NCBI RefSeq assembly: GCF_000750005.1
Contig: NZ_JPYA01000083.1
Location: forward strand, 1 to 64,000
Direction: 5' to 3'
Origin: Geobacillus icigianus
GTDB lineage: Bacteria; Bacillota; Bacilli; Bacillales; Anoxybacillaceae
DNA: 64,000 nucleotides
The notes under the pieces were generated by a model. The model was given only the letters and a program-made list of their open reading frames with translations. It had not been told where the DNA came from and searched no databases. Numbering within the stretch: position 1 is the first letter of the stretch; every line of letters begins with the position of its first letter. Made by a program: the position numbers and the translations under genes. Shown in pieces: positions 14,634-61,855 of the stretch.

Positions 14634-14770
14634 TAGGAGGCTGGTGAAAAACGGTTGGTTCTCTTGAGCCATGGGGGAACGTTTGCAAGGCGCTCCTGAT
14701 GCGACAAGGCTTATCTATTTGAGAAACAGGTTTGATAAGCGGCTTGCTCCCTTCAATCACCGGCCTTTTA
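14634..14770 (+). repeat. R2 element copy A (137 bp, MITE-like)
   Basis: Terminal inverted repeats TAGGAGGCTGGTGA (14634-14647) and TCACCGGCCTTTTA (14757-14770). Inner stem GGCTTATC...GATAAGC flanks a loop with ATTTGAGAAAC. It is very close to copy B at 61719-61855. No coding capacity. Confidence 0.85.
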
Positions 14771-14774
14771 GAGA

Positions 14775-14820
14775 AGCAGCAAAGGAAACGCTTTCTCTTG
14801 TCCTTTGCTGCTCTTTTTTT
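14775..14820 (+). terminator. strong rho-independent terminator after yhfI
   Basis: A 12-bp perfect stem AGCAGCAAAGGA (14775-14786) with TCCTTTGCTGCT (14801-14812), followed by C and a run of T. It borders the R2 element but is not part of it. Confidence 0.92.
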
Positions 14821-14857
14821 TATAATAGGTATAGTTCGAATTTTTTTACTTGTAAAA

Positions 14858-14875
14858 TGAATGGTCATTCATTCA
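14858..14875. promoter_or_regulatory. FadR-type operator upstream of lcfB
   Basis: The 18-bp site with TGAATG and CATTCA arms agrees at most positions with the Bacillus FadR (YsiA) box TGAATGAMTANTCATTCA. It lies 20 bp before lcfB; a TATAAT-like box is at 14821-14826. In B. subtilis lcfB belongs to the FadR regulon, derepressed by long-chain acyl-CoA. Confidence 0.75.
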
Positions 14876-14895
14876 TTTTGGGGGAGGAGCTTCGC

Positions 14896-16440
14896 ATGAA
14901 CTTACCTGCACGATTGGCGCAAATCGCAAAGCAATTGCCGGACAAGGAAGCGTATGTGTTTGTAGGGGAGCGCTGCACCTATCGGCAGCTTAACGCCGCT
15001 GTTTCACAATTCGCCGATGGGTTGGCACAGCTTGGCATCCGCCGCGGCGATCACGTTGCCCTGCTGCTTGGCAACTCGCCGCAGTTTGTCATCGGCTTGT
15101 ACGGGGCGCTGCGACTCGGCGCGACCGTCATCCCGATTAACCCGATTTACACCCCGGAGGAAATCGGCTATATTTTGCAAAACGGCGATGTAAAAGCCGT
15201 CATCGGTCTTGATTTGCTCGCGCCGCTGTTCGCCGAGGCAAAGCGGCGGCTGCCGCTGCTTTCCCATGCGATCGTTTGTGAAACGCCGCAAGGAAAGGAA
15301 AAAGCAGTTCCGTTGACCGAAGAGATGAAAACGTTTGCTGCCGTATTGGCTGCCGGCAGCCCGGAATTCACCGGCCCTGAGCTTGCCGATGACGAAGTGG
15401 CCGTCATTTTGTATACGTCGGGAACGACAGGAAAACCGAAAGGGGCGATGCTCACCCATAAAAACTTATACAGCAACGCCCAAGATATAGCCGATTATTT
15501 AGGCATCAATGAGCACGATCGCGTCATTGCCGCTTTGCCGATGTTCCATGTGTTTTGTCTGAGCGTCGCTCTCAATGCTCCGCTGATGAACGGGGGAACG
15601 GTGCTCATCATGCCGAAGTTCAGTCCGGCGCAATTGTTTGCGCTTGCTCGCGAAGAGCGGGCGACGATTTTCGCCGGCGTGCCGACGATGTATAACTTTC
15701 TTTACCAGTATAAGGAGGGGAGTGCCGACGATCTGCGGACGCTTCGTCTTTGCATTTCAGGAGGCGCTTCCATGCCGGTTGCGCTGTTGAAAAACTTCGA
15801 AGAAAAATTCAATGTGATCATTTCCGAAGGGTATGGGCTGTCCGAAGCGTCGCCGGTCACTTGCTTTAACCCGCTCGACCGGCCGCGCAAACCGGGGTCG
15901 ATCGGGACGAACATTAAGAACGTGATCAACAAAGTGGTGAACGAATACGGTGAGGAAGTGCCGGTCGGCGAAGTGGGCGAACTTGTCGTCCGCGGCCCGA
16001 ACGTCATGAAGGGGTATTATAAAATGCCGGAGGAAACAGCCATCGCCTTGCGCGACGGTTGGTTGCACACCGGTGATTTGGCGCGCATGGACGAGGATGG
16101 CTACTTTTACATCGTAGACCGGAAAAAAGAGATGATCATTGTCGGCGGCTATAACGTGTACCCGCGTGAAGTCGAGGAGGTGCTGTACAGCCATCCGGAT
16201 GTGGTCGAAGCGGCGGTGATCGGCGTTCCCGACCCGGATTACGGCGAGGCGGTAAGGGCGTTTGTAGTCACGAAAAATCCGGAGTTGACCGCCGAGCAAT
16301 TGATCGCCTATTGTCGCGAACGGCTGGCGAAATATAAGGTGCCGACCGCCATTGAGTTTTTGAATGAACTGCCGAAAAACACAACTGGAAAAATTTTGCG
16401 CAGAATATTGAAGGAGCAATTCGTCGCTTCTCGCGCTTGA
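14896..16440 (+). CDS. lcfB: long-chain fatty-acid-CoA ligase LcfB (YhfL)
   Basis: Activates fatty acids to acyl-CoA through an acyl-adenylate for beta-oxidation. The 514-aa protein has the AMP-binding P-loop [15 protein letters not shown] (about residues 175-190), the A5 motif [12 protein letters not shown], the A7-A8 region [24 protein letters not shown] and the catalytic lysine near the end in [14 protein letters not shown] 14896 follows GGGGAGGAG and agrees with the family start; the open frame from 14671 runs through a repeat and a terminator and is rejected. A single-gene unit, controlled by the FadR-like operator just upstream. Confidence 0.95.
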
Positions 16441-16535
16441 CGGTTGGCGCGGAAAGCGCCGGGAGGTCCGTGACGCGGCAAAGAAGGGGCTCGCGCGTCT
16501 GGGCCTCTCTTTTTTTCATTTCCGGCAATAGTATA

Positions 16536-16564
16536 TTGAAAATAATTTTATTATTTTTTATAAT
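16536..16564 (+). promoter_or_regulatory. sigma-A promoter of the TrpXYZ-type operon
   Basis: TTGAAA at 16536-16541, 17-bp spacer, TATAAT at 16559-16564 in an AT-rich stretch. A weak hairpin with T-run (about 16483-16516), which may end lcfB transcription, lies just before it. No T-box motif is visible in the leader. Confidence 0.75.
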
Positions 16565-16614
16565 TTTAAATATGTGATAGTTTCGAATTATTTTACATAG
16601 GGGGACTAGATCAT

Positions 16615-17625
16615 ATGGGCAAGCGTATTCGGCGGTTCGCCATCGTCTGTGCAGCCGGCTTGTTTCTGCTCGGCGGCTGTGGCCGAGCAAAGGAAACAGG
16701 GAGCGGCCAAGGAAACGGGGAAGGCGGAGGACAGAAGGAAAAAACGTACAAAATCGGCGTGACGCAAATCGTGGAGCATCCGTCGCTCGATGCGGCGCGC
16801 AAAGGATTCCAGCAAGCGTTAAAAGACAAGGGGCTGTCCGTTACGTATGACGTGCAAATCGCCCAAGGCGATCAAAGCACCAACCAAACGATCGCCAACA
16901 ATTTTGTCTCCGATGGCGTGGACTTGATCTTTGCCAACTCAACCCCAAGCGCGCAGGCTGCGCTCAATGCGACGAAAGACATTCCCATCGTCTTTACATC
17001 GGTATCCGATCCGGTTGGCGCCCAGCTCGTGCAATCGATGGAACAGCCGGGCGGCAATGTCACAGGAACGACGGATACCCACCCTGACGCGATTCCGAAA
17101 ACGGTGCAGTTTATTGACAAGTATGTGCAAGGCCATCGCGTCGGCATGGTGTACAACGCCGGCGAACAAAATTCGGTCGCCCAAGTCGAGCAAGTTAAAA
17201 AAGCGATGGAAGGGACGGATTTGCAGATCGTGCCCGCATCGGTATCCACGTCCGCGGAAGTGAAGCAGGCGGCTGAATCGCTGGTCGGCAAGGTCGACTG
17301 TTTTTACATCATTACGGATAACACGGTTGTGTCGGCGCTCGAATCGGTCATTCAAGTCGCCAATGAACACGACATCCCGCTGTTCGTCGGCGAGCTTGAT
17401 TCTGTCAAACGCGGTGGGTTTGCCGCCTATGGCTTTGACTATTACGACATCGGATATGAAGCCGGGGAAATGGCGGCGCAAATTTTGCAAGACGGCAAAA
17501 AGCCGTCCGAGCTTCCAGTGCAGTATCCGAAAAAGCTGAAGCTGGTCATCAACAAAAAAGCGGCCCAAGAAATGGGGATTAAACTCAATCCGGAATGGGA
17601 TTCGATCGCGGAATACATTGAATAA
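16615..17625 (+). CDS. ABC transporter substrate-binding lipoprotein (TrpX-like, ABC_sub_bind family)
   Basis: Extracytoplasmic binding protein of 336 aa, anchored by lipid at Cys22 in the lipobox LLGGC after a basic signal start (MGKRIRR). A Gly/Glu-rich linker follows, then the binding fold of the Peripla_BP/ABC_sub_bind type: KTYKIGVTQIVEHPSLDAARKGF, TIANNFVSDGVDLIFANSTPSAQ, PIVFTSVSDPVGAQLV, GNVTGTTD. Such proteins with this permease and ATPase type are predicted or known importers of tryptophan or other aromatic amino acids in Firmicutes (TrpXYZ). The substrate here is inference. A hairpin between this gene and the permease could give the extra binding protein usually needed. Confidence 0.85.
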   Translation: MGKRIRRFAIVCAAGLFLLGGCGRAKETGSGQGNGEGGGQKEKTYKIGVTQIVEHPSLDAARKGFQQALKDKGLSVTYDVQIAQGDQSTNQTIANNFVSDGVDLIFANSTPSAQAALNATKDIPIVFTSVSDPVGAQLVQSMEQPGGNVTGTTDTHPDAIPKTVQFIDKYVQGHRVGMVYNAGEQNSVAQVEQVKKAMEGTDLQIVPASVSTSAEVKQAAESLVGKVDCFYIITDNTVVSALESVIQVANEHDIPLFVGELDSVKRGGFAAYGFDYYDIGYEAGEMAAQILQDGKKPSELPVQYPKKLKLVINKKAAQEMGIKLNPEWDSIAEYIE

Positions 17626-17635
17626 ACGAGCGGCT

Positions 17636-17656
17636 TCCCCCTTCGACGAAGGGGGA
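17636..17656 (+). other. intercistronic hairpin between binding protein and permease genes
   Basis: TCCCCCTTCG pairs with CGAAGGGGGA around a tiny loop, with no U-tract. It may stabilise the upstream mRNA or attenuate read-through into the permease gene. Confidence 0.55.
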
Positions 17657-17673
17657 TTGCCGTCAAAAGGCGG

Positions 17674-18687
17674 GTGAATGGTGTGTGGACGGCCATGTTC
17701 AGTTCGGTGGAGGCCGGCTTGATTTACGCTGTGATGGCGCTTGGCGTCTATTTGTCGTTTCGCGTGTTGGACTTTCCCGATTTGACGGTTGACGGCAGCT
17801 TTGTCACCGGCGCATCGGTCGCCGCCGTGATGATCGTCAACGGAGCGAATCCGTTTGCCGCTTCGGCCGCGGCGCTATTGGCCGGATTTGCCGCCGGAGT
17901 CGTGACAGGACTTTTGCATACAAAAGGGAAGATCAATCCGCTCTTGTCAGGTATTTTAATGATGATCGCGTTGTATTCGATCAATTTGCGCATCATGGGA
18001 AAATCAAATATTCCGCTCCTTCAAGAGGAGACGGTCATCAAGCAAATGACAGCCGCTTGGCAGCAGGCCGGATGGGATGATGTGCTCAACCGAGCCGTTT
18101 CCTTCACAGGATTCGCGCCGCGAACGTGGGCGGTGCTCGTGGCGATGGCGGCGGTGGCGGTCGTGGTAAAAGGAATGGTGGACTGGTTGTTGAAAACGGA
18201 GTTGGGCATTGCCATGCGGGCCACGGGGGACAATCAGCCGATGGTGGCGAGCTTTTCCGCCAATACGGACGGCCTCATCATCTTCGGGCTTGGGCTGTCG
18301 AATGCGCTTGTCGCTTTTTCCGGGGCGCTCGTCGCCCAGTACGGAGGATTTAGCGACATCGGCATGGGAATTGGCATGATTGTCATCGGGTTAGCTTCCG
18401 TCATTATCGGCGAGGCGCTGTTTGGCGCTCACTCCGTTGTTCGGGCGACGTGGGCAGTGATCGGCGGGGCCATCGTCTATCGCCTGATTTTGGCGCTCGC
18501 TTTGCGGGTCGAGTTTTTGGAGACGAGCGATGTGAAGCTGATTACCGCTCTCATTGTCATGGCGGCCCTCATCGTGCCCAACCTCTGGGCGGCCCAAAAA
18601 GAAAAGCGGAGAAAAAGACGAAAAGCCGAGCAGCTGGAGAGGGGGGAGGCTGTTGCTGGAGCTGAAACGAATTACAAAAGTGTTTAA
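17674..18687 (+). CDS. ABC transporter permease (TrpY-like, BPD_transp_2 family)
   Basis: Inner-membrane subunit of 337 aa with about eight or nine hydrophobic segments (for example AGLIYAVMALGVYLSF, NPLLSGILMMIALYSIN, GMIVIGLASVIIGEALFG). The block ALGVYLSFRVLDFPDLTVDGSF is typical of LivH/branched-chain-type permeases used by TrpXYZ systems. The GTG start at 17674 is tentative because AAAAGGCGG is rather close; GTG 17683 and ATG 17695 are alternatives. The C-terminal tail is highly charged. Its last 35 bp overlap the ATPase gene. Confidence 0.85.
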   Translation: MNGVWTAMFSSVEAGLIYAVMALGVYLSFRVLDFPDLTVDGSFVTGASVAAVMIVNGANPFAASAAALLAGFAAGVVTGLLHTKGKINPLLSGILMMIALYSINLRIMGKSNIPLLQEETVIKQMTAAWQQAGWDDVLNRAVSFTGFAPRTWAVLVAMAAVAVVVKGMVDWLLKTELGIAMRATGDNQPMVASFSANTDGLIIFGLGLSNALVAFSGALVAQYGGFSDIGMGIGMIVIGLASVIIGEALFGAHSVVRATWAVIGGAIVYRLILALALRVEFLETSDVKLITALIVMAALIVPNLWAAQKEKRRKRRKAEQLERGEAVAGAETNYKSV

Positions 18688-19450
18688 CGAAGGAACGGCC
18701 GATGAAAAAATCGCTTTAGGCGGCATCGACTTGACGCTTTCCCCCGGTGATTTCGTCACGGTCATCGGCAGCAACGGCGCCGGGAAATCGACGCTGATGA
18801 ACATCATTTCCGGACGGCTGTCTCCCGACACGGGGGAAGTATGGATCAACGGCCGCAATGTGACATCGCTTAAGGAACATGCGCGCGCCCGTTATATCGG
18901 CCGTGTTTTCCAAGACCCGATGGCCGGCACCGCCCCGCATATGACGATTGAGGAAAATCTTGCCCTCGCTTACAACCGGACGAAGCGGCGCACGCTCCGG
19001 TTCGGGGTGACGAAGCAAAAGCGCGAGTGGTTTCGCGAGACGTTGCGAACGCTTCATTTAGGGCTAGAGGATCGGCTGACAGCGAAAGTCGGACTGCTTT
19101 CCGGCGGCGAGCGGCAGGCGCTCTCGTTATTGATGGCGACGTTTACTAAGCCTGATGTGCTTCTTCTTGATGAACATACGGCTGCTCTCGACCCGGCGCG
19201 CGCTGAGCTCGTCACTGAATTGACGAAGGAAATCGTCGCCAAACACCGTTTGACGACGCTGATGGTGACGCATAACATGGAGCAGGCGATTCGCCTTGGC
19301 AACCGGCTCATTATGATGGACGGCGGACAAATCATCTTTGCCGCCGAAGGAAAGGAAAAGGAGGAGCTGACCGTCGAACGGCTGCTTGCTGAATTTCAAC
19401 GCATTCGCGGCAGTCAATTTGCGAGCGATCGCGCGGTCCTCAGCCAATAG
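18653..19450 (+). CDS. ABC transporter ATP-binding protein (TrpZ-like)
   Basis: ATPase of 265 aa that powers the import system. Walker A GSNGAGKST near residue 40, Q-loop in VFQDPMAG, signature LLSGGERQALSLL and Walker B VLLLDEHTAALDP are all present; the switch histidine is in MVTHNMEQA. A TTG start at 18653 is chosen because GGGGGAGGC lies at correct distance and the product MLELKRITKVF starts like its family; no ATG is close. The overlap with the permease gene implies translational coupling. A good terminator follows at once. Confidence 0.88.
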   Translation: MLELKRITKVFNEGTADEKIALGGIDLTLSPGDFVTVIGSNGAGKSTLMNIISGRLSPDTGEVWINGRNVTSLKEHARARYIGRVFQDPMAGTAPHMTIEENLALAYNRTKRRTLRFGVTKQKREWFRETLRTLHLGLEDRLTAKVGLLSGGERQALSLLMATFTKPDVLLLDEHTAALDPARAELVTELTKEIVAKHRLTTLMVTHNMEQAIRLGNRLIMMDGGQIIFAAEGKEKEELTVERLLAEFQRIRGSQFASDRAVLSQ

Positions 19451-19455
19451 ACGAG

Positions 19456-19496
19456 GCGAGGTGCCCCGAACGAGAGGAGCGGGACACCTCGCTTTT
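19456..19496 (+). terminator. terminator of the TrpXYZ-type operon
   Basis: GCGAGGTGCCCCG (from 19456) and CGGGACACCTCGC (ending 19492) form a long stem with small mismatches, followed by TTTT. Confidence 0.85.
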
Positions 19497-19510
19497 CATT
19501 GGTGGGCCCG

Positions 19511-20374
19511 CTAGGCGTTGCGCGCGGCCGGCTGCGTTGCCGTTTGGTAGGCGGCTTGCAACGATTGGGTGACGGCTCCCGGCTGGCCGCTGCCGATCGT
19601 GGTGTCGTCCACTTGGATAATCGGAATAATGGATGAGGTGGTGCTCGTTAAAAACAGCTCATCGGCTTGGGCGAGGTCGTGGACCGAAAACGCTTCTTCC
19701 ATGAACGGGATGCCAAGCTCTCCGCAAAACTGCTTCACTTTCGTGCGGACGATGCCGTTTAAAATCCGCTCGGTGGCAGGATGGGTATATACCGTCCCAG
19801 CTTTGACGAGAAAAATGTTCGACGAACTTCCTTCCGTGACGATGCCATCGCGGTGGAGAATCGCTTCGAATGCCCCGCGCTCGACCGCTTCTTGCTTGGC
19901 CAGCACGTTTGGCAACAAGTTCAAGCTTTTAATATAGCAATACTCCCAGCGGACATCCTTGGTCACAATGACGCGCACGCCACGCGTCATTTCGTTTCTT
20001 TTCCGCGCCATCGGCTCGATGTAGGCATACAAGTTCGGACGGTTTTCCGCCGGAAAAGCATGGGCGCGGGGAAAGCTTCCGCGCGTCACTTGCAAATATA
20101 AAATGGCATCTTCGTGCACATCGTTCAAGCGGCGGAGCTCCTCGAGCCGCGCGGCCAGCTCTTCGGGAGCGAACGGGACAGACAGGCGAATAGCGGCCGC
20201 CGAACGATACAGACGATCGAGATGTTCTTCTAACCAGATGTACGTTCCATTGTATAGGCGCACGACTTCGTAGACGCCATCGCCGAACTGCAAGCCGCGC
20301 TCTTCCATCGGATACGTCACCTGCTCATAGCGGAGAACGCCGCGTTCGGTCAATACGTACGGTTTTACTGACAC
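19511..20374 (-). CDS. dat: D-amino-acid aminotransferase
   Basis: PLP-dependent fold-type IV transaminase of 287 aa that makes D-alanine or D-glutamate for the cell wall. Visible are ERGLQFGDGVYEVVRLY near the N-terminus, the PLP lysine in IKSLNLLPNVLAKQEA, and EAILHRDGIVTEGSSSNIF, HPATERILNGIVR and FLTSTTSSIIP of the cofactor pocket. These match Dat better than branched-chain transaminases. GTG 20374 with GGAG upstream gives the family-like start; an open frame extends to ATG 20404. It stands alone, convergent with the ABC operon. Confidence 0.92.
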   Translation of the reverse strand: MSVKPYVLTERGVLRYEQVTYPMEERGLQFGDGVYEVVRLYNGTYIWLEEHLDRLYRSAAAIRLSVPFAPEELAARLEELRRLNDVHEDAILYLQVTRGSFPRAHAFPAENRPNLYAYIEPMARKRNEMTRGVRVIVTKDVRWEYCYIKSLNLLPNVLAKQEAVERGAFEAILHRDGIVTEGSSSNIFLVKAGTVYTHPATERILNGIVRTKVKQFCGELGIPFMEEAFSVHDLAQADELFLTSTTSSIIPIIQVDDTTIGSGQPGAVTQSLQAAYQTATQPAARNA

Positions 20375-20477
20375 AATAGCCCACTCCTTTTCAATTGCGC
20401 ACATAATGAACCAATTCGATTATATCATAGATGGATTTTCTCCCCTACTCCCGCTTTGTGCCAAAGCGGGAGTTTCC

Positions 20478-20615
20478 TAGGAGGCTGGTGATTTAGTGCA
20501 AAAACGACTGATTCCACTCATTTCTCAATTAGAGAAACTTGGTAGAATCCGCTTTCTTTTTTGAATGAAAATGCCGCCGATCGGGGTGTGACAGCGGCTT
20601 TTCACCGGCTTTCTA
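20478..20615 (+). repeat. R2 element copy F (138 bp, divergent interior)
   Basis: Terminal inverted repeats TAGGAGGCTGGTGA (20478-20491) and TCACCGGCTTTCTA (20602-20615). The interior differs strongly from copies A and B but keeps a TTAGAGAAAC core. It lies between the divergent dat and azlC genes. Confidence 0.7.
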
Positions 20616-20714
20616 GTTAAGAGGATAAAAGAATTGACCTATGTTCGGGTTGCGAAATGACAGCGATTTTTAGACAATAAACATATGAAACTAGCGAAAC
20701 AGGGGAATGGATGG

Positions 20715-21431
20715 ATGGAAACGACATGGACGGCCGGGAAAATGGCGCCGTTTCGCCAAGGGGTGCAGGCGGGGGTGGCGATCGCCATCGGCTATATGCC
20801 GATCGCGCTGACATTTGGCCTGCTCGCTAAGACGACCGGGCTGACGCTCGCAGAAACGGTGCTGATGAGCGTCGTTGTTTTTGCCGGCGCCTCGCAATAT
20901 ATTGCCCTCAGCTTGCTTTCCGTCGGTACCGGCATATTTGAAATCATTTTAACAACATTTGTTTTAAACCTTCGCCATTTTTTAATGTCCGCTTCGCTCA
21001 ACGAAAAAGCGGAGGCGGATGCGCTTTGGAAAAAGGCGCTGTATGCGTTTGGCATCACCGATGAAACGTTTTCCGTTGCGGCCATGAAAGAGGGGACGGT
21101 CAGCGCTTCGTATATGTTTGGGTTGATCATGATGGCGTACGGCAGCTGGGTCGTCAACTCCGGCATCGGTTATGCTGTCGGGGCGAGTTTGCCGGAAAGC
21201 TTACAAGAGAGCATGTCGGTCGCTTTGTACGCCATGTTTATCGGCTTGCTCGTCCCAGCGCTGAAAAAGGAGCGGAAAACGGTATGGCTGGCAGGATTAG
21301 CGGCCGTGTTCAACTCGCTCGGCACGCTTGTCTTTCACCTGTCTAAAGGCTGGTCGATCGTGCTGGCGACGCTTCTTTCCGCAGTCGTCGTCGAGTGGCT
21401 GGCGAAGAAGGGGGAGAATGAGGATGAATAA
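20715..21431 (+). CDS. azlC: AzlC-type branched-chain amino acid exporter, large subunit
   Basis: Membrane protein of 238 aa that, with AzlD, exports branched-chain amino acids or their analogues. About six hydrophobic segments; GVQAGVAIAIGYMPIALTFGLLA is the family hallmark at the start, followed by FAGASQYIALSLL and LNLRHFLMSASL. ATG 20715 is preferred over ATG 20685 because AGGGG is then about 9 nt upstream. Overlaps azlD by 8 bp. Unlike B. subtilis azlBCD, no AzlB or Lrp-type regulator is adjacent. Confidence 0.9.
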   Translation: METTWTAGKMAPFRQGVQAGVAIAIGYMPIALTFGLLAKTTGLTLAETVLMSVVVFAGASQYIALSLLSVGTGIFEIILTTFVLNLRHFLMSASLNEKAEADALWKKALYAFGITDETFSVAAMKEGTVSASYMFGLIMMAYGSWVVNSGIGYAVGASLPESLQESMSVALYAMFIGLLVPALKKERKTVWLAGLAAVFNSLGTLVFHLSKGWSIVLATLLSAVVVEWLAKKGENEDE

Positions 21432-21729
21432 CGCGATCGTTTGGATGATTCTCGGCATGGGGATCGTCACGTATTTGCCGCGCATGTTGCCGTTCGTGCT
21501 GTTTGGGCGCGTCGAGCTGCCGCCGTTTTGGCAAGGGGTGCTGAAAAATGTGCCGTATGCTGCACTTGGCGCGCTGATTATCCCTGATATTTTTTTCATT
21601 CAAGACGACGTTCTTTTTGGGGTGATCGGTTTTGCGGCGGCGGTGACGGCCGCTTGGCTCGGTGCGAATGTTATTGTTGTCGTGCTTGCGGCGGTTGTCG
21701 TGCTTAGTTGCTATTCGATGTTGATGTGA
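21424..21729 (+). CDS. azlD: AzlD-type small subunit of branched-chain amino acid exporter
   Basis: A 101-aa protein with about three to four hydrophobic helices, beginning NNAIVWMILGMGIVTYLPRMLPFVLFG and continuing with LKNVPYAALGALIIPDIFF, typical of the AzlD family. ATG 21424 lies in the last codons of azlC, preceded by a GGGGGAGAATGAGG stretch, so the two are translationally coupled. A terminator follows 20 bp after the stop. Confidence 0.92.
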   Translation: MNNAIVWMILGMGIVTYLPRMLPFVLFGRVELPPFWQGVLKNVPYAALGALIIPDIFFIQDDVLFGVIGFAAAVTAAWLGANVIVVVLAAVVVLSCYSMLM

Positions 21730-21747
21730 AAGGTTCGGCGTTCAATG

Positions 21748-21778
21748 AAAAAAGGGCAGACAATGCCCTCTTTTTTTT
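21748..21778 (+). terminator. terminator of azlCD
   Basis: AAAAAAGGGCA pairs with TGCCCT and following T residues; stem from 21748, T-run to 21778. The A-rich left side may also stop the convergent SCO1-like transcript. Confidence 0.88.
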
Positions 21779-21795
21779 ATACCTGTACAAAATCG

Positions 21796-22389: not shown

Positions 22390-22500
22390 CATGATCCTCC
22401 CTTCATGATCGATCATACCAAAACGAGGAGCGACAAAAACACCATGTTTATGAACATTGTGCGTCTATTTTCCTAATGAAAAAAATTTTGCAAAAAAGGA

Positions 22501-24280: not shown

Positions 24281-24332
24281 ATTAACTTTGGTTCGTCATC
24301 AAAACGTGTACTTGACAGACAGTGAACTTCTC

Positions 24333-24474
24333 TAAGAGACCGATGATTTAAGGGGGCAAGCCACTGATCAAGCCCGTTTTTCAATCAAATAGAAAAGCCT
24401 CGTCGCATCAGGATCACCTTTCAAACGATCCCCCCATTGCTCAAAATAAACAACCATTTTTCACCAGCCTTCTA
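24333..24474 (-). repeat. R2 element copy C (142 bp, reverse)
   Basis: Ends TAAGAGACCGATGA (24333-24346) and TCACCAGCCTTCTA (24461-24474). On the minus strand it keeps GAGCAATGGGGGGATCG, GATCCTGATGCGAC and CTATTTGATTGAAAAACGGG. It lies between the small acidic gene and comK. Confidence 0.8.
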
Positions 24475-24659
24475 AACAGGTGTAGGCAAAAAATGATTGA
24501 TTTCCCCTGTTCTTTCGTAGATGCATAAGTTAAGATGTGTAATGAAAAAATCAAGTACAATTTTTGATGAAAAGTCTTAACTTTTTTCAAAATATAGAAA
24601 AATATAACTACTTGTGTTATGATAGAAAATAGCGAGCGAATAGGAAAGGAGATGGATCG

Positions 24660-41738: not shown

Positions 41739-41864
41739 TCGAAGGCTGGCGAAATACGGTTGTTTCTTTTAAGCAATGAGGGGGAGCGTGTGGAAGACGA
41801 TGGGCTTTTCGATTTGAGAAACGAGGCTGATAAGCGGCCTGCTTCCTAAATCACCAACCTTAGA
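41739..41864 (+). repeat. R2 element copy E (about 126 bp, degenerate)
   Basis: Starts TCGAAGGCTGGCGA, keeps GGTTGTTTCTTTTAAGCAATG and GATTTGAGAAACGAGGCTGATAAGCGG, and ends TCACCAACCTTA. Shorter than the 137-bp copies. About 150 bp of sequence without a gene then leads to the DUF418 gene. Confidence 0.75.
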
Positions 41865-43447: not shown

Positions 43448-43579
43448 AAAAAGGTTGGTGAAAAATCGCTGTTTGCCTTGATCGATGCTGGAACGCGAAC
43501 ATAGAGGCTGAGGCACAAGTTTTTTCACTTGAGAACCGATTCGGAGAGGCGGTTGCGCCAGCCAATCATCAGCCTCCTA
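43448..43579 (+). repeat. R2 element copy G (132 bp)
   Basis: Ends AAAAAGGTTGGTGA (43448-43461) and TCATCAGCCTCCTA (43566-43579), with a CACTTGAGAAC core and a possible G-U-rich inner stem. It lies between the divergent yisI-like gene and yisK. Confidence 0.7.
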
Positions 43580-45587: not shown

Positions 45588-45866
45588 TCTGTGAAAAAAT
45601 GTTGGCAAGCGGCCCTTTTCATCCTCGGGTGGAGGGCAGGTCGCGCTCTCCATGGAACTTTCCGTGAACATATTGAACTGACGCGAGATTTTCCTCCCCG
45701 GATGGAGGGCAAAACGTCTCCCATGGAACTTTCCGTGAACATGCCGAGCTGACGCGGATTTTCCTCCCCGGATGGAGGGCAAAACCTTGCTCGTGGATCT
45801 TTTCTGTAAAAATGCAGGACTGACGCGGATTTTCCTCCCCCGGGTGGAGGGCAAAACGTTGACCAT
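45588..45866 (-). repeat. R3 tandem array, four units of about 71 bp
   Basis: Units at about 45588-45653, 45654-45724, 45725-45794 and 45795-45866. On the + strand each has TTTTCTGT or CTTTCCGTGAACA, CTGACGCG, ATTTTCCTCCCC, GGATGGAGGGCAAAAC and a CCATGG end. Each can form the hairpin TTTTGCCCTCC/GGAGGAAAA (complementary strand). The first unit is the most divergent. A single copy in opposite orientation is at 57435-57510. Confidence 0.88.
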
Positions 45867-46152
45867 GGATCTTTTCTGTCCGAATAACTGTGACGAAAAA
45901 CGGCGGTTCTCAAGCGGTTTTTGTTCGAAGCGACCCGGCTGACTGCTCTGCCCGGCGCTTACGAGTCGACTATTTCAGAGAAATGGACGAGGGGGCGGTT
46001 TTTCATAATGAACGGTTGGGATGGTGGCCTTCTGGCGGTTGCTTGGTTGAGAAGCGTGGGGCATGAGAGGTGGGGCTGCTTGCTCGCCTGATTGTTCGAT
46101 CGGCTCCACTCGGGCTTTTCCGGATGTCCAATGAAAGGGGGTCTGATCGTTG
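45867..46152. other. gene-free stretch before the FIST-EAL gene
   Basis: A truncated start of a fifth R3 unit (ATCTTTTCTGTCC, 45867-45879), then GC-rich sequence. No promoter pair with good spacing was found; AAAGGGGG at 46134-46141 is the ribosome binding site of the next gene. Confidence 0.4.
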
Positions 46153-55188: not shown

Positions 55189-55200
55189 CACGTCATATGG

Positions 55201-55228
55201 CGGTGGATAGGATCATCCCTATCCACCG
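55201..55228 (+). other. intercistronic hairpin malE-malF
   Basis: CGGTGGATAGG (55201-55211) pairs perfectly with CCTATCCACCG (55218-55228) over a 6-nt loop, with no U-tract. Such structures usually protect the binding-protein mRNA and allow excess MalE. Confidence 0.75.
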
Positions 55229-55257
55229 TTCTTATCCATCGATAGGAGGGAGTTCCG

Positions 55258-56538
55258 ATGCCGGAAGCGAACGTCCGTCATCGGCCGGCGGTGGCGATGG
55301 CGCTGTCATTGCTGTTTGCCGGCCTTGGACAATTGTACAACCGCCGCTATATCAAAGGAATTTTGTTCCTCATCATCGAAGCGGCGTTCCTTATCACCTT
55401 TTATAACTTTTTGAATATCGGGCTGTGGGGGCTGGTGACCCTCGGCGAAATCCCGATGCTCGATCATTCGATTTTCTTGTTGATTCAAGGGCTTGTTTCC
55501 GTGATCATCATCGCTTTTGCCGTTGCGTTGCACGTTGCCAACGTCATTGACGCCCGCAACGACGCCCGCCGGCGGCAGCGCGGCGAGCCGTTTCCCTCGC
55601 TTGTTGAGTCGTGCCGGAACGCATGGGACCGAGGATTTCCGTACATTTTTGTCACGCCTGGGCTTGTCATGCTTTTGTTTATCGTTGTGCTGCCGCTGCT
55701 GTTCATGGTGTCGCTCGCCTTTACGGACTACAACTTGTATCATTCACCGCCGCGGCATTTGTTGAATTGGGTCGGATTTGACAACTTCAAAAACTTAGTC
55801 TCCATTCCGATTTGGAAAAGCACGTTTTTCAGCGTCCTCGCGTGGACGATCGTCTGGACGGTCGTAGCGACGACGATGCAAATCGCGCTTGGGCTGTTTT
55901 TGGCGCTGCTCGTCAACGATCCGCGCATTAAGTTGAAACGATTCATCCGCACGGTGCTCATTTTGCCGTGGGCCGTGCCGGCGTTTGTCACGATTTTGGT
56001 GTTTGCCGCGATGTTTAACGATAAATTCGGGGCGATCAACCGTGAGGTGCTGAGTTTGTTTGGGTTGTCGGTTCCGTGGATGACCGACCCGTTTTGGACG
56101 AGAGTGGCGCTCATCTTGATTCAGACATGGCTTGGTTTCCCGTTTGTGTTTGCGTTATTTACCGGCGTTTTGCAAAGCATTTCCCGCGATTGGTACGAAG
56201 CGGCCGATATCGACGGGGCGACGCGCTGGCAAAAGTTTAAATCGATCACCTTGCCGCATGTGCTGTACGCCACGGCTCCGCTGTTGATCATGCAATACGC
56301 GGGGAACTTCAATAACTTCAACATCATCTATTTGTTCAACCATGGCGGTCCGGCCGTGCGCGGGCAAAACGCCGGCGGAACGGACATTCTTATTTCGTGG
56401 GTGTACGATTTGACGTTTACGACGAACAACTACAATATGGCGGCTGCGATTTCGCTCATCATCGGCTTGATTGTGTGCGGGTTTGCTGTTTATCAGTTCC
56501 GGCGCACCCGTTCCTTTAAAGAGGAGGGGAACATTTAA
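55258..56538 (+). CDS. malF: maltodextrin ABC transporter permease (MalF type)
   Basis: Membrane subunit of 426 aa. An N-terminal extension with two or three helices (residues 15-100) includes ALSLLFAGLGQLYNRRYIKG, a motif frequent in Bacillus MdxF-like proteins. The permease core carries about six more helices and the EAA loop EAADIDGATRWQKFKSITLPH (about residues 315-335), which docks the ATPase. ATG 55258 follows ATAGGAGGGAG. It shares one base with the start of malG. No ATPase gene is in the operon, so a common MsmX/MalK-type protein must be encoded elsewhere. Confidence 0.94.
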   Translation: MPEANVRHRPAVAMALSLLFAGLGQLYNRRYIKGILFLIIEAAFLITFYNFLNIGLWGLVTLGEIPMLDHSIFLLIQGLVSVIIIAFAVALHVANVIDARNDARRRQRGEPFPSLVESCRNAWDRGFPYIFVTPGLVMLLFIVVLPLLFMVSLAFTDYNLYHSPPRHLLNWVGFDNFKNLVSIPIWKSTFFSVLAWTIVWTVVATTMQIALGLFLALLVNDPRIKLKRFIRTVLILPWAVPAFVTILVFAAMFNDKFGAINREVLSLFGLSVPWMTDPFWTRVALILIQTWLGFPFVFALFTGVLQSISRDWYEAADIDGATRWQKFKSITLPHVLYATAPLLIMQYAGNFNNFNIIYLFNHGGPAVRGQNAGGTDILISWVYDLTFTTNNYNMAAAISLIIGLIVCGFAVYQFRRTRSFKEEGNI

Positions 56539-57380
56539 TGAAGCGCAAATGGAAATCGCATATCGAAGTCACGCTCATTTACTTGTTTATCGCGTTCATG
56601 TTTGTCGTCATCGCTTATCCGCTTCTTTGGACCATCAGCATGTCGCTCAATCCGGGTACAAGTTTGTACTCGGCATCGCTCATTCCAGAAAAATGGACGC
56701 TCGAGCATTACAAATGGCTGTTTACCAGCCCGCAAAGCGATTATTTGCTTTGGTATAAAAACAGCCTGTTTGTCGCGGCGGTGAACGCAGCGCTGTCCGT
56801 TTTCTTCACGGCGCTCATCGCTTATGCGTTTTCGCGTTACAAATTCGTCGGGCGGAAAACGGGGCTGTACTTGTTTTTAGTCTTGCAAATGTTCCCCTCG
56901 CTCATGGCGATGGTGGCGCTGTATATTTTGCTTGACATGCTCCATTTGCTCGATTCGCTCTGGGGGCTTATTCTCATTTATGTCGGCGGGCAAATTCCGT
57001 TTAACGCCTGGCTTGTGAAAGGCTATTTTGACACGATTCCGCGCGAATTGGACGAGGCGGCGCGCATCGATGGCGCCGGTCATTTCGGCGTCTTTTTCCG
57101 CATCATGCTCCCGTTAGCCAAGCCGATTTTGGCCGTTGTCGCCTTGTTTAACTTCATGGCGCCGTTTACCGACTTTTTGCTGCCGTCGATCGTCTTGCGC
57201 GATCCGGACAAATTTACGCTGGCGGTCGGATTGTTCAATTTCATCAGCGACCGGTTTGCCAACAACTTCACTCGCTTCGCCGCCGGCTCGATTTTGATTG
57301 CCGCTCCGATTGCCATCGTCTTTTTGTTCTTGCAGCGATATTTGATTTCCGGCTTAACAGCGGGTGGCACAAAAGGGTAA
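56538..57380 (+). CDS. malG: maltodextrin ABC transporter permease (MalG type)
   Basis: Membrane subunit of 280 aa with six helices (for example VTLIYLFIAFMFVVIAYPLLW and GLYLFLVLQMFPSLMAMVALYILL). The EAA loop reads ELDEAARIDGAGHFGVFFRIMLPLAKP near residues 172-198. Ends SGLTAGGTKG as usual for MalG. ATG 56538 uses the last base of the malF stop codon; GAGGAGGGGAAC upstream lies in malF. The amylase gene follows after about 145 bp that contain a solo R3 repeat. Confidence 0.95.
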   Translation: MKRKWKSHIEVTLIYLFIAFMFVVIAYPLLWTISMSLNPGTSLYSASLIPEKWTLEHYKWLFTSPQSDYLLWYKNSLFVAAVNAALSVFFTALIAYAFSRYKFVGRKTGLYLFLVLQMFPSLMAMVALYILLDMLHLLDSLWGLILIYVGGQIPFNAWLVKGYFDTIPRELDEAARIDGAGHFGVFFRIMLPLAKPILAVVALFNFMAPFTDFLLPSIVLRDPDKFTLAVGLFNFISDRFANNFTRFAAGSILIAAPIAIVFLFLQRYLISGLTAGGTKG

Positions 57381-57434
57381 GAACCGCTATCATAAATAGT
57401 GGGCTTACCCGTTTCCACACAGCTAAACGGATAG

Positions 57435-57510
57435 AAAAGTTCCATGGGCAGCGCGATCTGCCCTCCACCCGGGGATGAAAATCCCGCGTCAGTTCGACAT
57501 TTTCACAGTA
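57435..57510 (+). repeat. R3 solo copy in front of the amylase gene
   Basis: AAAAGTTCCATGGG, then GCCCTCCACCCGGGGATGAAAA, CCGCGTCAGTTCGACAT and TTTCACAG match the R3 unit in the orientation opposite to the array at 45588-45866. It lies between malG and the amylase gene and would be part of the transcript leader. Confidence 0.82.
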
Positions 57511-57526
57511 AAGGGGGGAAACGGAA

Positions 57527-59062
57527 ATGGGGAACCGTCTTGGTGTACTGTTCATCCTTCCGTTCCTTCTTTTTTATGCCATGCCGGCTGCGGCGGCGGA
57601 AAAAGAAGAACGGACGTGGCAAGACGAAGCGATTTATTTCATCATGGTCGACCGTTTCAACAATATGGATCCGACGAACGACCGAGACGTCAATGTCAAC
57701 GACCCAAAAGGATATTTTGGCGGGGATTTAAAAGGAGTGACCGCGAAGCTCGATTACATCAAGGAAATGGGGTTTACCGCCATTTGGCTGACGCCGGTGT
57801 TTGAAAACATGCCGGGCGGCTATCATGGATATTGGATCAAAGATTTTTATCGCGTCGACCCGCATTTCGGCACGCTCGATGACTTGAAAACGCTGGTCAA
57901 AGAGGCGCACCGGCGCGACATGAAAGTCATTTTGGACTTTGTTGCCAACCATGTCGGTTACGACCATCCGTGGCTTCAAGATCCGGCGAAAAAAGACTGG
58001 TTCCACCCGAAGAAAGAGATTTTTGACTGGAACAATCAAAAGCAAGTAGAAAACGGCTGGGTGTATGGGCTTCCCGATCTGGCACAGGAAAACCCGGAAG
58101 TGAAAAAATACCTCATTGACGCCGCCAAATGGTGGATCAAAGAGACCGACATTGACGGCTACCGGCTCGATACGGTGCGGCATGTGCCGAAATCGTTTTG
58201 GCAAGAATTTTCTAAAGAAGTGAAGGCGGTGAAGAAAGACGTTTTCCTTCTCGGTGAAGTGTGGAGCGACGATCCGCGCTATATCGCCGATTACGGGAAG
58301 TACGGCATCGATGGGTTTGTCGATTACCCGCTCTATGGCGCGGTGAAGCAGTCGCTTGCGAGGCGCGATGCTTCGCTCCGCCCGCTCTATGATGTCTGGG
58401 AGTACAACCAAACGTTTTACGACCGCCCGTATTGGCTTGGGACGTTTTTGGACAACCATGATAATGTCCGGTTTACAAAGCTAGCGATTGACAACCGCAA
58501 CAACCCGATTTCGCGCATCAAACTAGCCATGACGTATTTGTTCACCGCCCCAGGCATCCCGATCATGTATTATGGAACGGAAATCGCGATGAACGGCGGC
58601 CCCGATCCGGACAACCGCCGGTTGATGGACTTCCGCGCCGACCCGGAAATCATCGATTACTTAAAAAAAATCGGCCCGCTCCGTCAACAGCTGCCGTCGT
58701 TGCGGCGCGGCGATTTTACGCTCTTGTATGAAAAAGACGGCATGGCGGTGTTCAAGCGGCGCTATCGGGATGAAACCACTGTCATCGCCATCAACAATAC
58801 AAGCAAAACGCAGCACGTGCATTTGACGAACGATCAGCTGCCGAAAAACAAAGAGCTGCGCGGCTTTTTATTGGACGATCTCGTCCGCGGCGATGGGGAC
58901 GGCTACGATCTTGTATTGGACCGCGAAACGGCGGAAGTGTACAAACTGCGGGACAAAACGGGGATCAACATCCCGTTTATCGCCGCGCTAGTCGCGGTTT
59001 ACGCGCTATTCCTCTTGTTTTTATACATGGTGAAAAAACGGGCAAAACGGATCCATGAATAA
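57527..59062 (+). CDS. extracellular membrane-anchored alpha-amylase (GH13, GH13_45-like)
   Basis: Starch-degrading enzyme of 511 aa. Signal peptide of about 24 residues (LGVLFILPFLLFYAMPAAAA), mature start EKEERTWQDEAIYFIMVDRF. Catalytic residues: nucleophile Asp215 in DGYRLDTVRH, acid/base Glu244 in LLGEVWSDD and Asp312 in FLDNHDNVR. The conserved region LPDLAQENPEV is characteristic of the GH13_45 group with Geobacillus GTA and Anoxybacillus enzymes. A hydrophobic helix near the C-terminus (INIPFIAALVAVYALFLLFLYMV) followed by basic residues should anchor it to the membrane. ATG 57527 after AAGGGGGGAAACGG. It feeds the transporter encoded upstream. Confidence 0.93.
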   Translation: MGNRLGVLFILPFLLFYAMPAAAAEKEERTWQDEAIYFIMVDRFNNMDPTNDRDVNVNDPKGYFGGDLKGVTAKLDYIKEMGFTAIWLTPVFENMPGGYHGYWIKDFYRVDPHFGTLDDLKTLVKEAHRRDMKVILDFVANHVGYDHPWLQDPAKKDWFHPKKEIFDWNNQKQVENGWVYGLPDLAQENPEVKKYLIDAAKWWIKETDIDGYRLDTVRHVPKSFWQEFSKEVKAVKKDVFLLGEVWSDDPRYIADYGKYGIDGFVDYPLYGAVKQSLARRDASLRPLYDVWEYNQTFYDRPYWLGTFLDNHDNVRFTKLAIDNRNNPISRIKLAMTYLFTAPGIPIMYYGTEIAMNGGPDPDNRRLMDFRADPEIIDYLKKIGPLRQQLPSLRRGDFTLLYEKDGMAVFKRRYRDETTVIAINNTSKTQHVHLTNDQLPKNKELRGFLLDDLVRGDGDGYDLVLDRETAEVYKLRDKTGINIPFIAALVAVYALFLLFLYMVKKRAKRIHE

Positions 59063-59086
59063 GAATAAATAGAAAGGAGGGGACTT

Positions 59087-60106
59087 ATGACCGTTACAAT
59101 TAAAGATGTCGCCAAGCGGGCCAATGTCGCGCCGTCGACCGTATCGCGCGTCATCGCCGACAGCCCGCGCATCAGCGAGAAAACGAAGCAGCGGGTGCGC
59201 GAGGCGATGAAAGAGCTCGGCTACCATCCAAATTTTATCGCCCGCAGCCTCGCCAGCCAAGCAACGCAAGTGATCGGCATCGTCATGCCGAGCTCGGCGG
59301 ACCAAGCGCTGCAAAACCCGTTTTTCCCGGAAGTGATCCGCGGCATCAGCAAAGCCGCCCATGAAAAGCGGTACGCCTTGCAAATGTCGACCGGGGAAAA
59401 AGAGAGCGACATTTACGAGCGGGTCGTCGAGATGCTGCAAGGGCGGCGCGTGGACGGCGTCATTTTGCTTTATTCAAGGCAAAACGACAAGCTGATGAAA
59501 TACTTGCAAAAACATGACTTCCCATTCGTCGTCATCGGCAAGCCGCACCAAAAGGCGGAACAAGTGACCCATGTCGACAACGACAACGTGCAGGCGGGAA
59601 AGGACGCCACGACCTATTTAATCGCCCACGGCCATGAACGCATCGCCTTTGTCGGGGGCAATCCGCAATATTTGGTGACCATCGACCGCCAAACCGGCTA
59701 TGAAGAGGCGCTTCGTGAAGCGGGGCTGCCGTACCGGCCGGAATACGTCATCCATGAGGAGTTTTTGCAAGAAGGCGGCCAAGAGGCGATGAAAGAGCTG
59801 CTTTCTTTGCCCGAGCCGCCGACCGGGCTGGTGGTCGCCGACGATCTCATGGCGCTCGGGATGCTGAAGACGCTCGATGAAATCGGCCTGCGCGTCCCCG
59901 AAGACGTGTCGATCGTCAGCTTTAACAACACCTTGCTCGCCGAAATGTCGCGCCCGCCGCTCACCTCAATCGACATCGGCATTTTCCAGCTCGGCTACGA
60001 AGCGGCGAAAAGTTTAATGGAAAAAATCGAAAACGAAGCCGAACCGATCAAGCGCATCATCATCCCGCACCGGCTTGTCGAGCGGGGGTCGTGTGCAAGG
60101 CGCTAG
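59087..60106 (+). CDS. malR: LacI-family transcriptional regulator of maltodextrin genes (MalR-like)
   Basis: Repressor of 339 aa. The N-terminal LacI helix-turn-helix TIKDVAKRANVAPSTVSRVIAD (residues 3-24) and hinge (KELGYHPNFIARSLAS) precede a sugar-binding core with QVIGIVMPSSADQ, GRRVDGVILLYSRQ, TYLIAHGHERIAFVGGN and the final SIDIGIFQLGYEAAKSL. ATG 59087 follows AAAGGAGGGG, 24 bp after the amylase gene, probably cotranscribed. Palindromes of its operator type lie between nplT and malE, so feedback control of the whole locus by maltose is likely. Confidence 0.92.
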   Translation: MTVTIKDVAKRANVAPSTVSRVIADSPRISEKTKQRVREAMKELGYHPNFIARSLASQATQVIGIVMPSSADQALQNPFFPEVIRGISKAAHEKRYALQMSTGEKESDIYERVVEMLQGRRVDGVILLYSRQNDKLMKYLQKHDFPFVVIGKPHQKAEQVTHVDNDNVQAGKDATTYLIAHGHERIAFVGGNPQYLVTIDRQTGYEEALREAGLPYRPEYVIHEEFLQEGGQEAMKELLSLPEPPTGLVVADDLMALGMLKTLDEIGLRVPEDVSIVSFNNTLLAEMSRPPLTSIDIGIFQLGYEAAKSLMEKIENEAEPIKRIIIPHRLVERGSCARR

Positions 60107-60185
60107 ATCACGGAAGCGCTGTTGGGGAAAGGTGTCCGTCGCACGTCGCATGGGCGGGCATCTTTTTCTATTTCTACATAGAGCT

Positions 60186-60322
60186 TAGAAGGCCAGTGAA
60201 AAACCGCTGATTCCCTTCATCAATGGGGGAACGCGTGAAAAGCAGGACCGATGCAACAAAGTTTTTCTAGTTGAGAAATGAGATGGAAAAGCTGGGCCCA
60301 CGAGTAAATCACCGGCCCTCTA
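60186..60322 (+). repeat. R2 element copy D (137 bp)
   Basis: Ends TAGAAGGCCAGTGA (60186-60199) and TCACCGGCCCTCTA (60309-60322). The inner stem TTTTC...GGAAA replaces the TTATC...GATAA of copies A and B, a compensated change; the loop keeps GTTGAGAAA. It is downstream of malR. Confidence 0.8.
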
Positions 60323-60390
60323 GAAGGCCGGTGATGTGTGAAGACAATCAGCGCGCGATCTGCCTTTCTCCATTTGAGAAACCTTGCCTC
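60321..60390 (+). repeat. partial R2 element abutting copy D
   Basis: A second left end, TAGAAGGCCGGTGA (60321-60334), starts on the last two bases of copy D, so the two ends form a palindrome. The piece keeps CCATTTGAGAAACC and CTCATCACC but lacks the rest. The right border (about 60390) meets the stop of the next gene. Confidence 0.6.
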
Positions 60391-60391
60391 A

Positions 60392-60619
60392 TCACCATGC
60401 ATTCAAGATCCAGACAATCAAAGGGATGACGATCACAAAGCCTAATATAAGATAACTGAAATACCGAAGCCATTTGGGTGCGGATTTTACTTTCAAGCTC
60501 TCTCGTTTCCATGCTCCGCCTGTTACGATTCTTTCAAAATCTTCAATGGGCGAAAAAATTTGCTCGTTATCTTTTTTCGGATATTCCTCCGTTGCTTGCG
60601 TTTCGTGAAGATCCTTCAT
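60392..60619 (-). CDS. small hypothetical membrane protein
   Basis: A 75-aa protein with a charged N-terminal part (KDLHETQATEEYPKKDNEQIF, SPIEDFERIVTGGAWKRE) and one transmembrane helix near the C-terminus (YFSYLILGFVIVIPLIVWIL), giving a tail-anchored form. No family recognised. ATG 60619 with AAGAAGGTG upstream is preferred to GTG 60628. The partial R2 element ends at its stop codon. It lies 40 bp after the convergent-free minus-strand gene at 60669 and is probably its operon partner. Confidence 0.65.
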   Translation of the reverse strand: MKDLHETQATEEYPKKDNEQIFSPIEDFERIVTGGAWKRESLKVKSAPKWLRYFSYLILGFVIVIPLIVWILNAW

Positions 60620-60668
60620 GACCGTCACCTTCTTTTTCAGTATTGGTGAACTACCCCCACTTAATTTT

Positions 60669-61088
60669 CTAGCGAAAAAAACTTACTATGACTCCGTAGA
60701 AAAGATGCCCAATTTGCCAGCAAAGGAGCGCCACGCCTGAGGTCAAGGGCGGCGTTCGCTCTGACAGGGCGGTTGTCGGATAAAGGATAAGACCAAGCAA
60801 AAAGCAAACAATAGGAAGGCGGATGAACATTTGCTGAGTGGTCCACTGTTGCTTGACCGCAACATAGAAAAGGCTTACTGCCAATACGATCGATATAAGT
60901 AGATGAAAAGAAAACTCGACCGCTTCCGAAAAGGCAAAGCGATTGAAAACGGGGACATAATCGATATTTAGAAGCAGTGTATACAGTTTGATGTTCCAAT
61001 ATGCCTCAAGCATTTTAAAAAACAAGCCAAGCCATATGCCTGACACCAAGCCAGCCACAATTCCTTTTATGACAAGCGAGCGACTCAT
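60669..61088 (-). CDS. hypothetical four-helix membrane protein
   Basis: A 139-aa protein with about four hydrophobic segments: IKGIVAGLVSGIWLGLFF, LLISIVLAVSLFYVAV, LPIVCFLLGLILYPTTAL and GVALLCWQIGHLFYGVIV. Conserved-looking polar residues lie at the helix ends (FRFAFSEAVEFSFH region). I recognise no named family. AGGGAGAG precedes ATG 61088. A long AT-rich region (61089-61260) upstream may hold its promoter. The following small membrane gene (60619) is on the same strand. Confidence 0.7.
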   Translation of the reverse strand: MSRSLVIKGIVAGLVSGIWLGLFFKMLEAYWNIKLYTLLLNIDYVPVFNRFAFSEAVEFSFHLLISIVLAVSLFYVAVKQQWTTQQMFIRLPIVCFLLGLILYPTTALSERTPPLTSGVALLCWQIGHLFYGVIVSFFR

Positions 61089-61334
61089 GACTTCTCTCCC
61101 TTTATTAAATAATCAGTCTTAAATCTATAAAAGGACTGACATATCATAGTAATAATCATTCAGTATTCTCATTGTATTATCATCTTGTATTGGTTGTAAA
61201 GCAAGCATTGGTTAAGGCTCACCTACCAGAAACATTGTGATAGGCTAAAGAATGTTTGCATAGGAGATTCATTATACTATACAATGGAATCAATCGGTAA
61301 GCAGCATTTTTGAACCAAAAGGAAGGGGAACAGT

Positions 61335-61613
61335 ATGGCAGGGATACAAGTAGAACAATCGAATGATCATTTAGTGATTCGTTGGCTGTTATCGGACATA
61401 GAAATCCCTCTCTCTGATATTGTAGAAGTAACACTTGACGATACTTATGCTGGGGAGGAGAAGACAGCGATCAGAATTGGTACGCCATACGGGGAAACCG
61501 ATAGATTGGTCATTCGCACCCATGCGAATACTTATATTTTGTTTACGACTGATGCGGCCAACCTTAAAAACAAAATTGGCTCGTTTCAAAACGATGTGCG
61601 TAAACACCAATGA
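61335..61613 (+). CDS. SunI/YnzG-family PH-like protein
   Basis: A 92-aa soluble beta-rich protein (IQVEQSNDHLVIRWLLSDIEIPLSDIVEVTLDD, then TAIRIGTPYGETDRLVI and NTYILFTTDA). The pattern S-D-I-x-E-V, IGTPYGxT-x-R, and TYLLFTT is shared with the short SunI/YnzG family, where the longer SunI gives immunity to sublancin. ATG 61335 after AAAAGGAAGGGG. Stand-alone gene; no bacteriocin gene is adjacent, so an immunity role is only a possibility. Confidence 0.72.
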   Translation: MAGIQVEQSNDHLVIRWLLSDIEIPLSDIVEVTLDDTYAGEEKTAIRIGTPYGETDRLVIRTHANTYILFTTDAANLKNKIGSFQNDVRKHQ

Positions 61614-61718
61614 TATTCTCGTTCTTACAGACATCGGTTAGATAACCGTTGTCTTTTTTTGTTTGCCAAAATCAGTACTCTCGGATGATCATGGTGAGCA
61701 AACGAAAATCATAAAGCC

Positions 61719-61855
61719 TAGGAGACCGGTGATTTAAGGGGACAAGTCGCTTATCAAGCCCGTTTCTCAAATAGATAAGCCTTGTCGCATCAGGATCGCC
61801 TTTCAAGCGTTCCCCCATTGCTCAAGAGAAACAACCGTTTTTCACCAGCCTCCTA
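61719..61855 (-). repeat. R2 element copy B (137 bp, reverse; best-preserved)
   Basis: Ends TAGGAGACCGGTGA (61719-61732) and TCACCAGCCTCCTA (61842-61855). On the minus strand: GAGCAATGGGGGAACGC, GATCCTGATGCGACAAGG, the inner stem GCTTATC/GATAAGC and loop TATTTGAGAAACGGG. It lies between the SunI-like gene and the hmoA operon. Confidence 0.85.

Follow-up and report, generated by a model that had tools for sequence, protein, structure and literature searches.

What kind of sequence is a repeat of about 137 bp that recurs seven times, between genes, within 64 kb of the Geobacillus icigianus genome? The DNA analyzed here (the window) covers the first 64 kb of contig C82, which is 74.6 kb long, in an assembly of 3.46 Mb in 206 contigs (G000). 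An initial annotation of the window proposed that the repeat is a miniature inverted-repeat transposable element (MITE), a structured RNA, or both. Our results indicate that it is very probably a gene-less Geobacillus MITE of about 131 bp, which we propose is moved in trans at YTAR sites by a DDE transposase similar to that of IS1182. This reading is carried by the ends of the repeat, its target-site duplication, the empty sites found for two copies, its arrays, and the fact that this genome carries an uninterrupted transposase gene.

Copies, target duplications and empty sites

We built a covariance model (R1) from 31 copies of the G. icigianus genome, the seven window copies among them. All seven full copies are located where they had been annotated and score 86-165 bits with R1 (E 2e-20 to 2e-40). 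The copy at 20478-20615 had implicitly been assigned to the plus strand, but it lies on the minus strand (86.5 bits, as opposed to 14.8 bits on the plus strand). The partial copy annotated at 60321-60390 does correspond to something, but this is a weak and decayed minus-strand match that extends over 60321-60447. The copies and the 4-mers at their ends are the following:

14633..14771 including the duplication, plus strand: MITE copy A, 157.8 bits, core 14637-14767, with an identical duplication (TTAG 14633-14636 and TTAG 14768-14771)
20477..20616, minus strand: MITE copy B, of a divergent type, 86.5 bits, duplication CTAG/CTAG
24332..24475, minus strand: MITE copy C, 137 bits, duplication CTAA/CTAA, inside a second mini-element (24290-24576)
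41739..41864, plus strand: MITE copy D, 126 bp with decayed ends, 100.8 bits, 4-mers ATCG/AGAG, duplication gone
43448..43579, plus strand: MITE copy E, 132 bp with a decayed left end, 86.2 bits, 4-mers GAAA/CTAA
60185..60323, plus strand: MITE copy F, of the second main subfamily, 126.2 bits, 4-mers TTAG/CTAG with one mismatch
60320..60447, minus strand: decayed copy adjoining F, with CTAG 60320-60323 in common, 19.4 bits (E 4e-5, filters off)
61718..61856, minus strand: MITE copy G, 164.7 bits, duplication CTAG/CTAG

Perfect duplications are therefore present at A, B, C and G, that of F carries one mismatch, and none is left at D and E.

The family is abundant in this genome. All 150 candidate places that were scored match R1 at E 0.01 or better, which is a lower bound, and, independently, the single copy 61719-61855 used as a DNA query found 49 matches with 40 of 206 candidate places scored. 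Pooling with matches inside fetched stretches, and excluding two cut or partial matches (in L101 and L121), raises the count to at least 194 distinct copies, seven of which lie in stretches that were not fetched. Since 71 of the 100 listed element-end places fall at pooled copies (118 ends being counted overall), the total suggests roughly 270 copies, or about 1% of the genome. Copy G has a 100% identical counterpart on contig C56 and three others at 99% identity, and these near-identical copies point to recent activity. The annotation of the repeat as intergenic broadly holds in a wider set of 187 copies: by a crude open reading frame (ORF) call, 159 lie outside ORFs of at least 100 aa, 27 overlap with the end of an ORF over more than 30 bp, and one is inside.

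Read as TAG...CTA, the commonest length is indeed the annotated 137 bases (68/194 copies), and 147 of the 194 measure 135-139 bases. However, the outermost bases belong to the target rather than to the element. In the 83 usable single copies (those with TA at both ends, from 120 with known flanks), the left and right xTAy are identical in 67, as compared to 36.7 on average and at most 51 in 10,000 shuffles. These identical 4-mers are CTAG in 46 cases, TTAG in 12, CTAA in 7, and CTAT in 2. The outer TAG and CTA are therefore part of a 4-bp target duplication, mostly YTAR and mainly CTAG, which leaves an element proper of about 131 bp with terminal inverted repeats RAGGCYGGTGA. The eleven end pairs are paired in 82% of cells, versus 18-54% when slid.

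Empty sites were examined for two of the seven window copies, A and C. In 13 of 13 congeners, the sequences that flank copy A adjoin one another with no element between them (a gap of 15-39 bases versus 154-174), and the stretch with copy C is absent from 12 of 13 (278-303 bases in the window versus -8 to 23), the thirteenth having 436 bases. Copy C is hosted by the second mini-element (24290-24576), which is about 147 bp long without it, has the ends GGTTCGTCATCAAAA and GACTTTTCATCAAAA, and is bounded by an 8-bp repeat, TTAACTTT, at 24282-24289 and 24577-24584; a single TTAACTTT is found at the empty site of one congener (L298). DNA resembling this second mini-element, which may be ISL3-like, also occurs at positions 89-192 of contig C189 in the same genome and at G007:C1:2437747-2437844.

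The MITE itself is gene-less. Of 183 copies (the distinct rows of 120-146 bases without N among the 194), 88 have an internal frame that stays open for 30 codons, but the about equal variability of the three codon positions (0.106, 0.104, and 0.118 in the 54-copy subfamily) speaks against a gene remnant. In copy A, the internal ATG frame (14671-16440) is open and continues in frame into the downstream ORF (589 aa as listed), so that gene-calling software may place a start within the MITE.

In a survey of 61 genomes, with up to 54 places scored per genome and strict filters, the family is present in all 14 genomes of the genus, G. icigianus included. It is also found in 4 of 23 other genomes of the same family, with 1 to 4 weaker copies each, and in none of 24 genomes from other families of the order. 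Plasmid and phage collections gave no match to copy G.

The candidate transposase partner

Left ends of the MITE type (at most one mismatch) number 118 in the G. icigianus genome, with none for the reversed control. In another genome (G012), the spacing between such a left end and a 501-aa DDE_Tnp_1 frame is constant in four cases. The search for a transposase with matching ends thereby identified a full insertion sequence (IS) of about 1.55 kb, whose ends TAGAAGGCCGGTGAAAAA and TTAATTCACCGGCCTTCTA match those of the MITE. Its protein has NCBIfam NF033551 (IS1182) as best model, with 208-230 bits in three proteins; this is below the curated cut-off of 270, and we therefore call it IS1182-like rather than a member of that family. 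PF01609 (DDE_Tnp_1) is also matched, at about 50 bits and together with PF05598 and PF13751, in two proteins.

The IS also resembles the MITE in its target. Identical YTAR-type 4-mers (YTAR or one step off) are present at both IS ends in 15 of 20 loci, from Geobacillus, Brevibacillus, Lentibacillus, a Dethiobacter metagenome-assembled genome, and a Bacillales metagenome-assembled genome: seven CTAG, three CTAA, two TTAG, and one each of TTAA, ATAG, and CTAT. Four of these 15 are copies from G012 and four are from one Lentibacillus, and the ranking of IS ends gave extra weight to equal 4-mers. The loci without equal 4-mers in the top row are L172, L173, L182, L187, and L202, of which L173 alternatively reads CTAG on both sides, and L187 and L202 are partial matches. 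YTAR also marks other IS families.

The G. icigianus genome itself harbors an uninterrupted 493-aa transposase ORF on contig C26, where the TGA counted in the alignment must sit in the 27 aligned bases before the ATG, and a second IS copy with two stop codons on contig C200. At E 1e-60, transposase matches occur in 11 of the 14 genus genomes (several being fragments), in 2 of the 23 others of the family, and in none of the remaining 24. The initial annotation reported no transposase in the window, and the matches of the two transposase families searched in this genome do indeed skip contig C82, other families not having been searched.

In the proposed mechanism, the DDE transposase of the separate IS1182-like IS, which has the same ends, would bind the MITE ends in trans and excise or copy the element, by either a cut-and-paste or a copy step. 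The MITE would then be inserted at a YTAR site, preferably CTAG, with duplication of 4 bp. CTAG would be left at both ends, and new copies would often land on old ones, giving arrays with a common duplicated site.

Several observations weigh against this scenario. The similarity between IS and MITE is only about 18 bp per end (by eye). The empty-site evidence covers only two of the seven window copies, and the pre-insertion site of copy A was not seen to the exact base, as the flanks are conserved between species at only 75-84% identity. Moreover, the uninterrupted IS of the G. icigianus genome has unequal flanks, TTAG and CTAA, and three genus genomes (G004, G008, and G010) hold MITEs (9, 37, and 25 scored matches, respectively) with no transposase match at E 1e-60. 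These last two points would favor mobilization of the MITE by some enzyme other than the IS1182-like one. However, the IS1182-like IS fits the MITE in end sequence as well as in duplication, and 34 of 37 DDE transposase loci, drawn from 92 matches of two domain-family searches and some of them cut by contig ends, lack such ends. The three that are framed by MITE-type ends, about 1.56 kb apart, all belong to the IS1182-like group, and we consider a different enzyme very unlikely. The IS701-type (DDE_5) transposases of the G. icigianus genome were also considered as partners and rejected, as none of their seven loci has a matching end pair.

High copy number, mostly intergenic location, arrays, and inverted ends are also what a REP/BIME-like element (repetitive extragenic palindrome/bacterial interspersed mosaic element) would display, if moved as a hairpin by a REP-associated tyrosine (RAYT, Y1) transposase. 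Instead, inverted repeats that lie far apart and a target duplication of 4 bp suit a DDE enzyme, and the transposon with matching ends does encode one, making a REP/BIME-like origin scarcely credible.

The partner transposase ends in ...SPAF, with its stop codon supplied by the flanking target duplication (L172 3037-3040, on contig C26 of G. icigianus; L168 1151-1154). Any YTAR site provides TAA or TAG as a stop.

Structure and the conserved internal block

The initial annotation described a conserved inner hairpin whose stem changes from TTATC/GATAA to TTTTC/GGAAA with compensating bases, and took this as a sign that structure is selected. If so, the repeat would be a structured RNA or RNA regulator (riboswitch-like, a terminator, or a small RNA), dispersed by duplication and with its fold under selection by the host. 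Two copies do fold much better than shuffles as minus-strand RNA (61719, z -4.51; 20478, z -4.46). However, several strands fold no better than shuffles, for example the plus strand of 24333 (z +0.12) and 41739 (z -0.67).

The difference between the two stem types exists, but it is not a general compensation: over the 183 copies, the pair in question is A-T in 15, T-A in 45, and an unpaired T-T in 55. Over these copies, the annotated stem makes 78.4% standard pairs, within the range of shuffles (mean 77.1%, maximum 78.5%), and a local hairpin, TTNTC-5 bases-GAGAA, is 86.4% paired (shuffle mean 86.3%, maximum 87.0%). Slid controls pair less for both stems, as expected of stems picked from the same sequences.

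In a cross-genus alignment of 28 elements, seven of them from other genera (one of eight, L322, being left out), the local hairpin shows nothing above shuffles. The annotated stem is slightly above them (76.6% paired versus 74.5%), with 31 of 500 shuffles reaching its pairing and 100 of 500 its covariation score. The RNAalifold covariation term of this alignment is 0.03, and in a covariation scan of all column pairs of the 183-copy alignment the top pairs track subfamily linkage, with no run of stacked pairs. No covariation is thus clear of shuffles, and an Rfam scan of the window gave no match at gathering thresholds.

The genes that flank the copies are found in all orientations (58 tandem same, 36 tandem opposite, 39 divergent, 39 convergent, and 14 undetermined), which also argues against a regulatory RNA. 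Private mutations in the two main subfamilies are Poisson-like, with 84 in 54 copies and 61 in 76 copies (variance/mean 0.84 and 0.95). They are not depleted in the hairpin arms (12 observed versus 12.3 expected, and 8 versus 8.9) or in the ends. With private mutations so evenly spread, copies appear to drift freely after insertion. The structured-RNA part of the initial proposal is therefore not supported by stem pairing, covariation, or private mutations, and we regard it as highly improbable. Its alternative, a MITE, is supported by the duplicated target sites, the empty sites, the many copies, and a transposon whose ends match.

Conservation of the interior is nevertheless real and, across genera, counts in favor of a structured RNA. 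A hairpin-like palindromic block, TTNTC-N5-GAGAAA, is near-constant between subfamilies and genera, its stem being TTNTC/GAGAA and not the one that had been named. In the 28-element alignment, eleven positions of the block are at least 90% conserved (78, 79, 81, 82, 84, 86-89, 91, and 92), as compared to two in the remaining interior beyond the end regions (26 and 65). TTGAGAAA and TTTGAGAA were not found in six of eight IS copies checked, including all four Geobacillus ones, and the IS copies L180 and L182 hold one of the two. The four Geobacillus IS copies likewise gave no sign of the GAGAAA half of the block.

This block looks like a constraint on active master copies of the MITE. It is conceivable, although we would not expect it, that it is a selected cis-acting module, for example one to which a host protein binds or at which the transposase has an inner site. 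Such a module would let the small element out-compete its parent IS and, together with the self-regenerating CTAG, would make it a specialized array-building parasite and not a passive deletion derivative.

Arrays, known systems and other repeats

Neighboring copies are frequently joined. In a first list, 18 of 22 neighboring pairs within 300 bases overlap by exactly two bases, TA. Moreover, of 186 copies with known flanks, 99 have a further end-like sequence (3 or fewer mismatches in 14) directly beside them, on both sides in 11 cases, against a window background of 29 end-like sites among 3,654 TA sites, true ends included. A re-search of the fetched stretches with R1 listed fewer same-strand neighbors than the genome search, and arrays are therefore undercounted there.

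An element inserted into CTAG is left with CTAG on either side, so the arrays are most simply explained by a target that is recreated and used again, and this may suffice. Taking them as proof of an active preference for ends is unsupported, as 180 CTAG sites in the fetched stretches lie at pooled element ends and 128 elsewhere in intergenic DNA, some of which may be unpooled ends. A palindromic target recreated at each end can thus yield tandem arrays.

Bacterial MITEs such as RUP, NEMIS, ERIC, Nezha, and EFAR are described as non-coding elements of 70-300 bp with terminal inverted repeats, located beside genes and able to be mobilized by transposases that recognize their ends (PMC3733652). 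The Geobacillus MITE has size, lack of coding capacity, inverted repeats, and gene proximity in common with them, and it is set apart by its host, its 4-bp YTAR target, the fact that more than half of its copies abut another end, and probably also by the sequence of its ends.

Another dispersed repeat of Bacillales, bcr1 of the Bacillus cereus group, has on average 39 and up to 130 integral copies, and bcr mobility has been linked to repetitions of a TTTAT motif (PMC6542083), as opposed to YTAR and an IS with the same ends for the Geobacillus MITE. Although the IS1182 model is the closest one to the partner transposase, IS1272 of the IS1182 family is reported to replace inverted repeats without target duplication (PMC5678879), whereas elements of the partner IS group duplicate 4 bp of YTAR type.

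Active IS elements of G. kaustophilus HTA426, other than the IS1182-like IS, generate direct repeats of 4-9 bp, and the article mentions neither IS1182 nor MITEs (PMC8024623). Our literature search, whose coverage leaves out most subscription journals, returned no paper on a Geobacillus MITE family among the matches listed.

The element is thus a MITE that occurs throughout the genus in high copy number and has a probable IS1182-like partner; it is of an ordinary kind but abundant and array-forming. For Geobacillus, this adds a very abundant MITE family for which a candidate transposase, a target site, and empty sites are available, and it explains some hundreds of intergenic sequences that might be taken for RNAs.

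The window also contains repeats of other types. A different dispersed repeat at 45616-45874 consists of about three tandem units of about 72 bp containing TGGAGGGCA, and a further copy of this type lies about 11.7 kb away in inverse orientation (57436-57513, minus strand). In the region of 9845-9990 and 13365-13435, there is a tandem pair of 38-nt units with 87% similarity, together with a 71-nt inverted repeat that relates 9920-9990 to 13365-13435.

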